Assembly: GCA_020050835.1 (NCBI GenBank)
Contig: JAGVKB010000046.1
Location: 1-64,000 of the forward strand
Length of the DNA: 64,000 nt
Direction: 5' to 3'
From: Candidatus Obscuribacterales bacterium
GTDB lineage: Bacteria > Cyanobacteriota > Vampirovibrionia > Obscuribacterales > Obscuribacteraceae
Made by a program: the position numbers and the translations under genes. The notes under the pieces were generated by a model that had not been told where the DNA came from, ran no database searches, and saw only the letters and a program-made list of their open reading frames with translations. Shown piece after piece: positions 46,788-52,093 of the stretch; position 1 is the stretch's first letter, and every line of letters begins with the position of its first letter.

Positions 46788-47210
46788 ATGAACAAGAGAA
46801 TTCTACAGATCTTTACAGCGGCTGTAATTGCCGGCGCTCAAGCGCCGTGCGTACTGGCACAAAATGACTTTTTCGGCGGAAATCTGCCCAGCTCAGTTCC
46901 CAGTGCGGCCAATCCGCCTGCTACTGCAGGTGGTGCACAAGGCGGCGGTGATTACACCGATGATGAAAAGCGTATGCAGAAGAAGTACAAGTCGAGCATT
47001 CAGCATGCCAAGGATTTGGTGGGCAAAGGTGACTCCATGATGAAGAAGGGTGAGTCACGGCACAACGACAAAATGTACAAGAAGGGGAAAATCCTCAAGG
47101 AGATCGGCGAGAAACAGTTGGCAGAGCTTCAAGCCAACAATCCGTTTCCTGAGGATAAAGAGCCCAAGGATGGCAAGGAATCGAAAGATAAGAAGGCCGC
47201 GGCTCCTTAA
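46788..47210 (+). CDS. Small secreted Lys-rich protein of unknown function
   Basis: A 140-residue protein with a signal peptide (ILQIFTAAVIAGAQAPCVLA, cleavage before QND). A Gly/Pro/Ala linker (28-55) leads to a highly charged helical part with repeated Lys-Lys and Gly-Asp/Glu units (KYKSSIQHAKDLVGKGDSM, KKGKILKEIGEKQL), and the end is Lys/Glu/Asp-rich. No family is recognised. AAGGAG precedes the ATG. It follows gatA by 34 bases. Confidence 0.65.
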   Translation: MNKRILQIFTAAVIAGAQAPCVLAQNDFFGGNLPSSVPSAANPPATAGGAQGGGDYTDDEKRMQKKYKSSIQHAKDLVGKGDSMMKKGESRHNDKMYKKGKILKEIGEKQLAELQANNPFPEDKEPKDGKESKDKKAAAP

Positions 47211-47473
47211 GCCTCAATCGCCAGTTTGTTCGATTAAACTTTCAAATTCCACGAAAATTTCAGAGTCGCCTGTTAGATTTCCCTACAAAGGATCTGGCAG
47301 GTTTAAGTCCGACTGATAGCAAGACTGACTTTCCAGCTCCTCGATCTCCTCGCTCCAACCGGTTAAGCAAGCATGTAAACCGGGCCCAGATGGAAGATTG
47401 GGGGATTTCGCGATAGGCGTTCGACTGGATGGGTACATAGGTAGCAGCAGGACTGGCTGAGATTTAGGGGACT

Positions 47474-49291
47474 ATGGTACGACAGGACGAAGGAAATTCT
47501 GCAGATGGTGGACTCGGAGGCAATCCGAGCGAACGTTCTAGCAGAAATAGAGATACCTCGAACTGGTCGGGAGCGCCGCCCAGCACCGCTCCGGCCGGCA
47601 AGCCGCACAACCGGAATCAGCCTCCAGCTCCGCCCTCATCGCCTGAAAGCGTTGAAATTGAGCAAGTTAGCCGCAGCAACGACTTGCAATTCAAGCTGGC
47701 TGACCTTTACGCCCGTGAGAATTTTTCGGACGGAGCACCGTTCGACGAGACTTATCTGCTCTTGAACCAACGCGAGCTTGCAAAGGCGTTCCTCGAAAAG
47801 CATAAGAAGGAGTTCGCTCAGCTCTATTTGGCTCATCACTATGCAAAGGAAAACGGATTGGACCTGGCATATGTCGATCAGTATCCCGAGCAACTTGCTC
47901 AGAACTACATGATGGGACATGCATTGGAGCTCGCTCGCGGCTACGTAACCGAACACCGAGTTCAGTTAGCGGAGGAGTTCCTGGCGAGCAATCAGATGGA
48001 CTTGGCGCAGAGTTTCGTCGAAGAGCATCAACTAGATCTGGCGCAGCGATATGTTTCTGAGTATACGGAAAGGCTTGTTGCGTTAATGGATGGTAAGCGC
48101 GCCCAAGCAGCGTTAGCGAAGCTTCGGCAGGCTACGCCGGCTCAGGGAGCGGTCCAGGCTGCTGTTCAACCAGCTGTTCAGGCTACCGAACAAGTTCCGC
48201 CTAATTCATATATTGCTCCGCAGGCTCCAGCTGCCAGCGTCGCGGCCGGCGCCAATGACGTGCTTGCTGATCTGCCGACGATGGCCATCTTGACCAAGAA
48301 AACAGCCGAGTATTCTTCGATGTCTTCCGGACAGGCTGTTACTGAGGAGATGCCGATCTCCAATTATCGGCCGATGCCTCGCCTTCGGCCCCGCCGTCGC
48401 ACAACGACAACTCAGCTTCCGCTAATGAATCCCGGTCAGGCAAATCCAGCTGCGCCCGGCTTGCCTGCTGCTCCGGCTCAACAGCCAGCAGTGTCGCCAG
48501 CTCTACCCGAGCAGCCGCTCGTTCCGGCTCAAGTCGCTCAAACTCAACAGCTTCCGCTCTATCAAGCTTTGCAATCAAGCTATCAATCAGTTCAAGCGAG
48601 CGATTCCAGCAGCGGATCGGATGCCGGTGCATCGAATCAGACCAGCTCATATGCCAGCCAATCCAGCCGTTCGTCCGCTTCCCCGCCGCCAGCTTCCCCG
48701 CTGGAATCGTACGCGCCGCCGGCCACCGCTGAATCTAGCAGCGGGGCGAGCTCGTCGGCGAGTTTTAGCGCTGCTGAATCAGAGCCGTATCTGCGAGCTT
48801 CGGCGGTCGGCAGCCAGTCCTCTGAGAGCGCCTATACCGGGCATGAAGCACCGAGCTCGCCACTTGCCAATGAGCCGATACTGCCTGACAGCGAGGCGTC
48901 AGAACCTCGTCGCCCTCAATCAAACGCTCCGCCGCCCTTAAGTGGTGACTATACAAATGATGCTCGCAATGCTGTTTTGTGGGACCAGCTTGGTCAAGTC
49001 CCGCTGAGCACTGATGGCAGTATCTACGGTGCGGCTCCGCCTGTCTCCGCTGGCAGTGGCTTTAATTCGCTGACGCCACCAGCCTGGGAGAACGCCGGGT
49101 TGGCTTATCAAAGTGCAGCCAGATCGCAAGGCGCTGTACCGATGGGAATGGAAGATTTCATGTCTACCTTGAGCGAGTCAGCAATTTCAGCTCAAGCCAT
49201 TCCAGCCAAGGGGCTCGCGCGATTCGGCTCACCGCCGCCCAGCTTACGGTCGGACGGAGCAGCGACAGAAGTAACCAGCGCCTGGTTTTAG
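47474..49291 (+). CDS. Protein with tandem 12-residue helical repeats and a disordered tail
   Basis: This 605-residue protein is not a family I recognise. Residues 1-65 are polar and Pro/Ser-rich. Residues 100-205 hold a regular repeat of 12 residues with consensus [EQD]-L-A-x-x-[FY]-[VLM]-x-x-x-x-x, starting at 101, 113, 140, 152, 164, 176 and 188; a 200 unit is partial. Units include QLAQNYMMGHAL, ELARGYVTEHRV, QLAEEFLASNQM and DLAQSFVEEHQL. From about 210 to 605 it is Ala/Pro/Gln/Ser-rich low complexity, likely disordered, without a signal peptide or membrane helix. Its stop touches the stop of the converging c-di-GMP gene. The likely role is binding or scaffolding; this is inference. Confidence 0.7.
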   Translation: MVRQDEGNSADGGLGGNPSERSSRNRDTSNWSGAPPSTAPAGKPHNRNQPPAPPSSPESVEIEQVSRSNDLQFKLADLYARENFSDGAPFDETYLLLNQRELAKAFLEKHKKEFAQLYLAHHYAKENGLDLAYVDQYPEQLAQNYMMGHALELARGYVTEHRVQLAEEFLASNQMDLAQSFVEEHQLDLAQRYVSEYTERLVALMDGKRAQAALAKLRQATPAQGAVQAAVQPAVQATEQVPPNSYIAPQAPAASVAAGANDVLADLPTMAILTKKTAEYSSMSSGQAVTEEMPISNYRPMPRLRPRRRTTTTQLPLMNPGQANPAAPGLPAAPAQQPAVSPALPEQPLVPAQVAQTQQLPLYQALQSSYQSVQASDSSSGSDAGASNQTSSYASQSSRSSASPPPASPLESYAPPATAESSSGASSSASFSAAESEPYLRASAVGSQSSESAYTGHEAPSSPLANEPILPDSEASEPRRPQSNAPPPLSGDYTNDARNAVLWDQLGQVPLSTDGSIYGAAPPVSAGSGFNSLTPPAWENAGLAYQSAARSQGAVPMGMEDFMSTLSESAISAQAIPAKGLARFGSPPPSLRSDGAATEVTSAWF

Positions 49292-52093
49292 TTAATTGAT
49301 ATCTTCGCGTTCGAGGTTTTCCAGGACCGCCAGGAAAATGTCGATCAGGAATGGATCCCACTGGCTTCCCGCACCATTTTTGAGCGCTTGTCTCGCCTGC
49401 TCTTTGGACATCGCCGGCCGATACGGGCGGTTGGAGATCATGGCATGGTACGCATCGACTATAGAGACTATTCTTGCTGGCAACGGGATATCTTCGCCTT
49501 TTAATCCACGCGGGTAACCCGTTCCATCCCAACATTCGTGATGGTTTTCGACGATGTCACAAATCTCTTTCAGCGCTTGAATTGGTCGAAGCAATTGCGC
49601 CCCCAGCTGTGGGTGCTGTGTGATGATGTCCATCTCCTCTTCGGTGACTAACCCCGGCTTATTAATGATGTTTTCCGGGATCGATAATACACCCACATCA
49701 TGAAGAAGGCTTGCAACGCGGATTTGCTCGACTTGCTGTTGTCCTAATCCCATCACTCGCGCCAGCAGCTCGGCGAAGCGAGCGGTCTCCAGGTGATGCT
49801 CCTTGTTATACTCGGATTTGGAGTAAAGCGCACTGGCCAATGCCTTTACCATCTCCACGACTTCCGGCACCAGCTCTTCTTTCGATGGTTCCGCCGGTGG
49901 TGGCGCGTCCGCTTGCTCGGCCGGTGCTGCAGCCGGCTCGAGCGGAGGAGTTTCAGTTTCGGCCGGCGAATTCGGTGCGGCAATCGAGAACTCGGAAAAC
50001 ATTAAGTCGCTGGCAGTGTGGACTTGATTACGGCCCAGGCGTTTAGACATGTAGAGCGCCTTGTCGGCCAGATCGAGCAGGCTTTGATGACCTTCTGCAT
50101 CTTCCGGATAGGCTGCCACTCCTAAAGAGGCTGTGACTGTTATCTCGATCTCCTCATGAACTATCGCTTCTCGTGCGACGTGTCTCCTGATCCGCTCGGC
50201 TACAACGACTGCACCTTCTTGATTTACTTCCGGCAGGATCAGTAAAAATTCCTCCCCGCCATATCTGACCGGAATGTCCACGTCCCGGCAATTGCTTCTG
50301 ATCAGTTTGGCAACTGTCTTGAGTACCGCATCACCGGCGGGGTGACCGTATCTGTCATTGATTGATTTGAAGTGATCGACATCGATCATTACTACGGCAA
50401 GGTTGCGCTGATAACGTTCTGCCAGCCTCAATTGATCAGCCAACTTCTCTTGTCCGGTGCGGTGATTAAAGAGTCCGCTCAGTCCATCGGTGGTTGCTTG
50501 GCGCTGGACACGTGCATAAAGCCGGGCGTTGGTAACGCCGATTGCTACTTGATCGGCAACTGACTTGAAGAAATTCTTGTTCTCCATAGTCCATAGCTGT
50601 TCGGACTCGCATTTGTGTCCGCCAATCAATCCAAGCAGCTTTTCTTCGTAAGTGATTGGAACGTAAAAGAGCGACCTGACCGGGTAGGAAGAGAGAATTG
50701 ATTTGCGGAACGGCTCGACAAGCCGGTCGCGGCTGACATCGCTGACCACCAGGCATTGGTCCATATTGAAGTTAGACTTGAAAGTTTCAAGTATGGCCAG
50801 ATCTTCATCGCGGTCCATCAGTTTGTATTCGTCAGATGTTGCATACTCGCTCCTAACCGTGTCGGCCGGGTCATCTTCCGACGGCAAGATAACAAAGCAA
50901 CAGTCGAGCGAGAATCTCTGCGAGAGATCCTCTAACATTGTTCCGATATTCTCGTTGATGTTAAAGGACTTTCTGATAATATTGCTGATGCGATGCAGCA
51001 GCTCGGCTTGCCCGCTCAGGATCTGCTCTCTGAGCTTTGCTTGCTGCAATTCTAGATTGCGCTGCTCGAGCATCTGGTTGTTCTTTGAAAAACTTACGTT
51101 GGTTTGGCGAGCCTTTTCGAACTCCTCTTCCAGTCTCTGGGCATAGTCCTCGAGCAGCCGCCATTGAACTGCTAAGTCGCGCTCGGTCTTTCTCAGGCGT
51201 AAGGACGCATGTACTCGTGCCAGCAGCTCGGCATCATGGCATGACTCCGATAGGCAGTCCTCGGCGCCGAGATTCAGACCTTCAATCTTTCCTTGCAGGT
51301 CGGTTTCCAGTGTAACCAGAATGACGGGAATGTGTTTCCATTCTTTCGAGTCTTTCAAGACTCGACAAAGGCTGTGCTCCGACCTCCCCTTAATTTCGTT
51401 GTCTAGAACGATTAAATCGATGTGGTTTTCATTTAACAGCTCAAAAGTTTTGGGCTCTGAATCGGCTTCCAAGACATTGTACTTGGCGCTCAGAACTCTG
51501 CTTATGCGCCGTCGCAAGTGACGGCTCGAATGAACAACAAGTACCGATTCCGCTCCCAGCGTTTGAGCGGTGGGGTCGTCCTTGGGAGACAGAGTGCGCT
51601 GTCCTAGTTCGGAGAGACGGCCAGCCAGATGCCGGCAGAACAGACTCAAGGTCGAGAGATCTTTCTCTTCAATCGTTCTACTTTCGTCAAAGGCTACAAC
51701 TCTCACGAGCCCTTTTACAGTTCCTGAACTGTCGCCGGAATCATCCATGATTGGAACAATCGCATAGGGGTAACCGGATTCGCTGTCTGTACTCGAGAAA
51801 ACACGGCCTGTCCACGGTTTTTGAGTTTGCTTTACCTTTTGAGCAACCAAAGTATGTGCCACTGTCAGCGGTTGCTGGTGCTCATCTTGCAGGCTGTCAA
51901 TCAGCTCGGTGCGTTGTTCATCTTCGTTACCGGCGGAAAAGGAGACCAGGTTGACGATTTCATGTCCTTTAATCAAATCGATTAGACCGAAATCGAAGCC
52001 CAAGACGTGACAGATGTGCCGGCGCACGGCATCGAAGAACTCCTCCTGTCCGGGGAGCTCATGATCTGGAGAAACCCTGTTTGCGCTTGTCAC
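49292..52093 (-). CDS. Multidomain c-di-GMP protein: GAF, receiver-like, GAF, GGDEF, HD-GYP
   Basis: A 933-residue cytoplasmic signalling protein with both a cyclase and a phosphodiesterase domain for cyclic di-GMP. A GAF-like domain spans about 15-165. A receiver-like domain (182-300) keeps Asp231 in LIVLD, but the N-terminal acidic pair (VLVVHSS) and the late Lys-Pro (LSESC) are missing, so it is degenerate. A coiled coil (305-365) leads to a second GAF (375-525). GGDEF has GGEEF at 612-616 with an intact RxxD inhibitory site at 603-606. After a Pro/Ala/Glu linker (700-740), HD-GYP has HD (797-798) and HHECWDGTGYP (850-860). Both catalytic domains look competent. There is no membrane segment. 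Confidence 0.93.
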   Translation of the reverse strand: MTSANRVSPDHELPGQEEFFDAVRRHICHVLGFDFGLIDLIKGHEIVNLVSFSAGNEDEQRTELIDSLQDEHQQPLTVAHTLVAQKVKQTQKPWTGRVFSSTDSESGYPYAIVPIMDDSGDSSGTVKGLVRVVAFDESRTIEEKDLSTLSLFCRHLAGRLSELGQRTLSPKDDPTAQTLGAESVLVVHSSRHLRRRISRVLSAKYNVLEADSEPKTFELLNENHIDLIVLDNEIKGRSEHSLCRVLKDSKEWKHIPVILVTLETDLQGKIEGLNLGAEDCLSESCHDAELLARVHASLRLRKTERDLAVQWRLLEDYAQRLEEEFEKARQTNVSFSKNNQMLEQRNLELQQAKLREQILSGQAELLHRISNIIRKSFNINENIGTMLEDLSQRFSLDCCFVILPSEDDPADTVRSEYATSDEYKLMDRDEDLAILETFKSNFNMDQCLVVSDVSRDRLVEPFRKSILSSYPVRSLFYVPITYEEKLLGLIGGHKCESEQLWTMENKNFFKSVADQVAIGVTNARLYARVQRQATTDGLSGLFNHRTGQEKLADQLRLAERYQRNLAVVMIDVDHFKSINDRYGHPAGDAVLKTVAKLIRSNCRDVDIPVRYGGEEFLLILPEVNQEGAVVVAERIRRHVAREAIVHEEIEITVTASLGVAAYPEDAEGHQSLLDLADKALYMSKRLGRNQVHTASDLMFSEFSIAAPNSPAETETPPLEPAAAPAEQADAPPPAEPSKEELVPEVVEMVKALASALYSKSEYNKEHHLETARFAELLARVMGLGQQQVEQIRVASLLHDVGVLSIPENIINKPGLVTEEEMDIITQHPQLGAQLLRPIQALKEICDIVENHHECWDGTGYPRGLKGEDIPLPARIVSIVDAYHAMISNRPYRPAMSKEQARQALKNGAGSQWDPFLIDIFLAVLENLEREDIN

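Follow-up and report, generated by a model that had tools for sequence, protein, structure and literature searches.

Alpha-solenoids, among them the TPR, Sel1, HEAT, ARM and PPR families, are commonly protein-binding scaffolds. The unit of the leucine-rich variant (LRV) repeat has 24 residues and combines an alpha helix with a 3-10 helix; PopZ combines a helical interaction region with a long Pro-rich disordered region. Units of PPR, ARM, and Sel1 are about 31–44 residues long and contain two or more helices (PMC11514114), and 11-mer amphipathic motifs are described for group 3 LEA proteins (PMC10295645). The repeat array described here is real and unclassified, and the protein that carries it is an orphan. 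It is encoded in the window, that is, the whole stretch of 64,000 nucleotides analyzed, from a host genome of 7.0 Mb whose family probably comprises non-photosynthetic relatives of cyanobacteria.

Results

Coding status and layout of the repeat protein

The repeat ORF is very likely coding, since its frame is open against 12–40 stops in each of the remaining five frames and since GC1/2/3 in the repeat region (0.64/0.30/0.60) are as usual for coding DNA. A weak Shine-Dalgarno-like AGGGGA (47466–47471) lies close upstream of the ATG; a search for a sigma-70-like promoter of this ORF found none. The stop codon directly abuts that of the convergent GGDEF/HD gene (49289–49294), leaving no intergenic room for a terminator.

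A helical repeat domain, acidic in charge (24 D/E vs. 15 K/R), is flanked by an N-terminal low-complexity stretch and a long tail (Table 1). In the whole protein, no transmembrane segment was detected (best 19-residue KD mean 1.12), and no catalytic family of Pfam or NCBIfam was matched. Judged by composition, residues 1–65 are probably disordered. The same probably holds for the approximately 390 residues of the tail, where P/A/S/Q/G make up 54–62%; this composition, with the lack of a transmembrane segment, is the evidence that agrees with the disordered tail of about 400 residues described in the sequence-only reading.

Table 1 Features of the repeat ORF and its conserved neighbors. Positions refer to the window, residue numbers to the repeat ORF.
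Feature	Position	Strand	Basis
P140, upstream neighbor, 140 aa, Lys-rich, signal-peptide-like N-terminus	46788..47210	+	Synteny
Repeat ORF, 605 aa	47474..49291	+	Frame without internal stop
N-terminal low-complexity stretch, residues 1–65	47474..47668	+	Composition; no transmembrane segment
Helical repeat domain, residues 66–214	47669..48115	+	Two single-sequence AlphaFold2 runs; ~1% proline
Degenerate unit KLADLYARENFS (residue 74), followed by three extra residues DGA	47693..47728	+	Leave-one-out profile
Degenerate unit PFDETYLLLNQR (residue 89)	47738..47773	+	In register with next unit; weak, under profile-score cut
Unit ELAKAFLEKHKK (residue 101)	47774..47809	+	Motif match; leave-one-out profile
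Unit EFAQLYLAHHYA (residue 113), followed by five extra residues KENGL	47810..47845	+	Motif match; leave-one-out profile
Shortened unit DLAYVDQYPE, lacking two residues after the A and before the Y	47861..47890	+	Alignment by eye
Five strict-register units QLAQNYMMGHAL, ELARGYVTEHRV, QLAEEFLASNQM, DLAQSFVEEHQL, DLAQRYVSEYTE	47891..48070	+	Motif, shuffles, leave-one-out profile
Terminal degenerate unit RLVALMDGKRAQ (residue 200)	48071..48106	+	Register only
Ala/Ser/Pro/Gln-rich tail, residues 215–605	48116..49288	+	Composition; no transmembrane segment
Response regulator-GAF-GGDEF-HD protein, downstream conserved neighbor	49292..52093	-	Pfam; synteny

The 12-residue period and its units

BLOSUM autocorrelation over residues 101–205 gave z = 8.5 at lag 12, 5.5 at lag 24, and 3.8 at lag 36, compared with -2.3 at lag 11 and 1.5 at lag 34; the period thus differs from that of TPR (34), as had been noted from the sequence. 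As a control, 147 ORFs of the window and of 17 syntenic loci were scanned; the repeat ORF ranked second (lag-12 z = 8.9), ahead of the TPR proteins of the window (z = 7.4 and 5.4). Up to five motif units follow one another in register, whereas 200,000 shuffles of residues 66–214 yielded a run of two at most, reached twice. Autocorrelation peaks, scan rank, and shuffles together make the 12-residue pattern real. Adjacent and alternate units are equally alike (mean BLOSUM 22.8 vs. 21.0), and in this comparison a 24-residue super-repeat was not seen. The first rank in the control scan was held by an ORF on the reverse strand of another locus (L043:7856-9326), which carries near-identical 13-residue repeats (LPKGGAQTGQYNC).

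The motif [EQD]-[LF]-A-x-x-[FY]-[VLM]-x5 occurs at residues 101, 113, 140, 152, 164, 176, and 188. The claim of at least seven units, starting at residue 101 (window position 47774) and in strict register from residue 140 to 199, was therefore borne out, with seven motif positions within residues 101–199 and five consecutive units in register. The limits given for the array, residues 101–205, were too narrow: degenerate units begin at residue 74, and about ten units occupy residues 74–211, with small insertions and one deletion. Residues 125–139 consist of a five-residue insertion and the 10-residue unit DLAYVDQYPE. In a leave-one-out profile, the units at residues 74, 101, 113, 140, 152, 164, 176, and 188 outscore everything outside the domain, that at residue 74 scoring 9.5 against 5.5 for the best outside stretch; the units at residues 89, 130, and 200 were placed by register or by eye.

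The unit duplications look old, with the protein pattern retained, because third codon positions are near random (31% identity between units) and a DNA-level tandem repeat is gone. Identity at codon positions 1 and 2 is 55%, a value inflated by the choice of compared units, which had been picked for matching the motif.

Structure of the array

Two single-sequence AlphaFold2 runs, both made without an alignment, were almost wholly helical: run 1 (residues 66–214) with pLDDT 76.7, the one model of five that exceeded 59 (other four, 53–59), and run 2 (residues 99–205) with pLDDT 72.1. Helices in run 1 span residues 160–172, 174–184, and 186–196, the one-residue breaks falling on unit position 10 of the strict array; those in run 2 span residues 99–127, 138–157, 160–184, and 186–205, with 20–29 residues or about two units each. 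A break at H185 is common to both. The prediction that had been proposed as a check is thus consistent in giving an all-helical array and inconsistent over the breaks at residues 156–159 and 173. On repeat sequences, AlphaFold2 can give wrong models with high confidence (PMC11795689). Foldseek searches with the predicted models returned no fold match (best E 1.1 in PDB and 0.53 in the viral set).

The strict 12-residue spacing imposes a hydrophobic period of 4.0 residues, and the best hydrophobic periodicity of the array is found at 90 degrees, not 100. Calculated on an ideal helix, the hydrophobic moment drops with length, from 0.32 for 12 residues to 0.15, 0.10, and 0.08 for 24, 36, and 60 residues. 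A single long amphipathic helix, one of the two forms suggested at the outset, is disfavored because the moment is lost beyond one unit and because of the 90-degree angle. The other form, compact short helices, agrees with the moment, which is high over one unit and lost over several, as suits separate helices; the positions of their breaks differ between the runs. An arrangement of short helices, kinked once per unit near the His/Asn position, is consequently favored but unproven.

Search for relatives and known families

No homologue of the repeat protein was found in 60 relatives, among 50 genomes of the host's family, among 382–386 genomes of the class and phylum, or in the phages and viral contigs searched; among plasmids, the sole match was in Ensifer, at E about 1. 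Those weak matches in relatives that were inspected (E 0.004–0.8) were attributed to chance, being to a tRNA synthetase C-terminus, a universal stress protein, TPR, an acyl-CoA dehydrogenase, and low-complexity frames. Among the matches listed for a three-unit DNA pattern in the genome and viral contigs, nearly all were Ala/Phe/Leu-rich or simple-repeat frames, resembling the antisense of Lys/Ala-rich genes; a four-unit pattern allowing as many as three mismatches found only simple repeats outside the window in the family genomes. A profile from MAFFT-aligned unit pairs, just 12 positions long because the pairs were aligned out of register, was significant for the window's own units only.

The repeat protein passed the cut-off of no Pfam or NCBIfam model, no PDB sequence matched it, and neither did ARM and PPR profiles or, even at E up to 10, the TPR, Sel1, HEAT, and LRV models. 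The profile search, named beforehand as the check by which the array could lose its novelty, therefore assigned it to no known repeat family, and with Foldseek also silent the array still appears new. DhiT toxin (NF048015) was rejected at 12.7–18.6 bits against a curated cut-off of 100 bits. For idealized consensus arrays, some matches below cut-off turned up in Pfam, NCBIfam, and PHROG (best E 2.7e-6, PHROG 6443, function unknown). These queries were invented and of low complexity, the native sequence reached 0.00068 over 21 residues at best against PHROG models, and the matches were discounted as chance. Literature searches on 12-residue helical repeats returned nothing usable. Being unmatched by known repeat families and found in no other genome searched, the protein looks lineage-specific and is perhaps a scaffolding protein.

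Genomic neighborhood

The gene order fabF-gatA-P140-[slot]-GGDEF/HD-asnB is kept in much of the family. The variable slot, located between P140 and the GGDEF/HD gene (47210–49291 in the window; compared over loci L027-L043), is empty in two relatives (L028 and L029), and in others it holds unrelated genes, including those for cysteine synthase, TPR, and polyphosphate kinase-like proteins (named by eye); the repeat gene is therefore a lineage-specific occupant of this slot. At each of the 17 syntenic loci examined, P140, for which no Pfam match was found, lies next to gatA. Several tandem copies of P140 lie downstream of gatA in one relative (L035:1900-3092).

Discussion

Proposed explanation and alternatives

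Our working explanation, held tentatively and with slightly more doubt than belief, is that the gene encodes a soluble, lineage-specific repeat protein of short helices, which has a long tail rich in Pro/Ala/Ser/Gln and serves as a binding scaffold. Each 12-residue unit would form one short helix of about 9–11 residues, with Leu2, Ala3, Phe/Tyr6, and Val/Leu7 towards the core and His/Asn10 at or near the helix end, where the chain would kink before the following unit; about ten of these helices might stack as a small rod. The exposed variable positions 4, 5, 8, 9, 11, and 12 could bind one or more partners, and the tail of 390 residues could serve as a flexible spacer or provide a second region for binding. 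By its architecture, a scaffold or adaptor role through partner binding at the variable positions appears likeliest. Since no homologue was found, no cross-species covariation or conservation stands behind any part of this explanation.

The array might instead form one or a few long amphipathic helices, as a coiled-coil-like rod or an oligomerization stalk. The two-unit helices of run 2 would suit such a rod, but the hydrophobic period of 4.0 fits neither heptads (3.5) nor hendecads (3.67), the moment at 100 degrees over 60 residues is low, with 90 degrees as the best angle, and the chain breaks at H185 in both runs, which leaves this form unlikely. We regard it as similarly improbable that the array descends, with much divergence, from one of the known superfamilies of helical repeats (TPR, Sel1, HEAT, LRV), in which 12 residues would be half a unit. 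TPR proteins are common in the window, and the small residues of TPR, at positions 8 and 20, are likewise 12 apart; against this descent stand the failure of all four models at E up to 10, the lack of a lag-34 excess and of a 24-residue super-repeat, and the absence of any PDB fold match at E < 1.

The gene might also be an orphan, young or under weak constraint, whose repetitive helical sequence has little or no selected function; this would agree with its absence from all other genomes searched and with a slot that is empty in two relatives and filled by unrelated genes in others. Such an origin is nevertheless quite unlikely, given that 605 codons stay open where other frames carry 12–40 stops, and given a motif kept while silent sites were randomized, which must have taken time under selection. 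Tandem helical units with variable surface positions also recall a modular nucleic-acid-binding array reading one base or phosphate per unit in the PUF/TALE manner, and the diversity of tandem repeat proteins is mostly unexplored (PMC11417379). The excess of acidic residues in the repeat domain speaks against it. So does unit length, since the modular binders PUF and TALE have units of at least 31 residues. Those of PPR proteins, too, are no shorter than 31 residues (PMC11514114). We hold nucleic-acid binding of this kind to be very improbable.

That the array is a new alpha-solenoid class, with a single 12-residue helix as its unit and confined to a single genus within a side lineage of the cyanobacteria, is unlikely; such a unit would be shorter than in any family known to us. 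Should the repeating unit really be one 12-residue helix, helical repeat proteins would have a very small natural module, useful in design and in asking how solenoids arise. As one protein without relatives, the array is a structural curiosity and not a solved case.

Comparison with known systems

With the alpha-solenoids (TPR, Sel1, HEAT, ARM, PPR), the array shares tandem helical units and a few conserved small and aromatic core positions, and it may work in an alpha-solenoid-like way. This likeness is predicted: for the elongated superhelix of stacked helical units that marks the structural class, the alignment-free runs gave all-helical models with differing breaks, and Foldseek gave no match. 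It differs from these families in its unit of 12 residues, probably one helix, against about 31–44, and in matching none of their models. LRV resembles it as a short helical repeat whose unit equals two array units; unlike LRV, the native array has no 24-residue super-period and no LRV match at E up to 10. Group 3 LEA proteins likewise have short helix-forming units in tandem, each of about three turns; the array is set apart from them by a period of exactly 12 (lag 11 being negative), a conserved aromatic residue and His/Asn, and a non-continuous hydrophobic face. In place of the continuous stripe of 3.5–3.67 period that marks coiled coils, the array shows a moment lost beyond one unit and a 90-degree periodicity. 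To PopZ-type bacterial hub scaffolds the likeness is one of layout only: a helical interaction region joined to a long Pro-rich disordered region.
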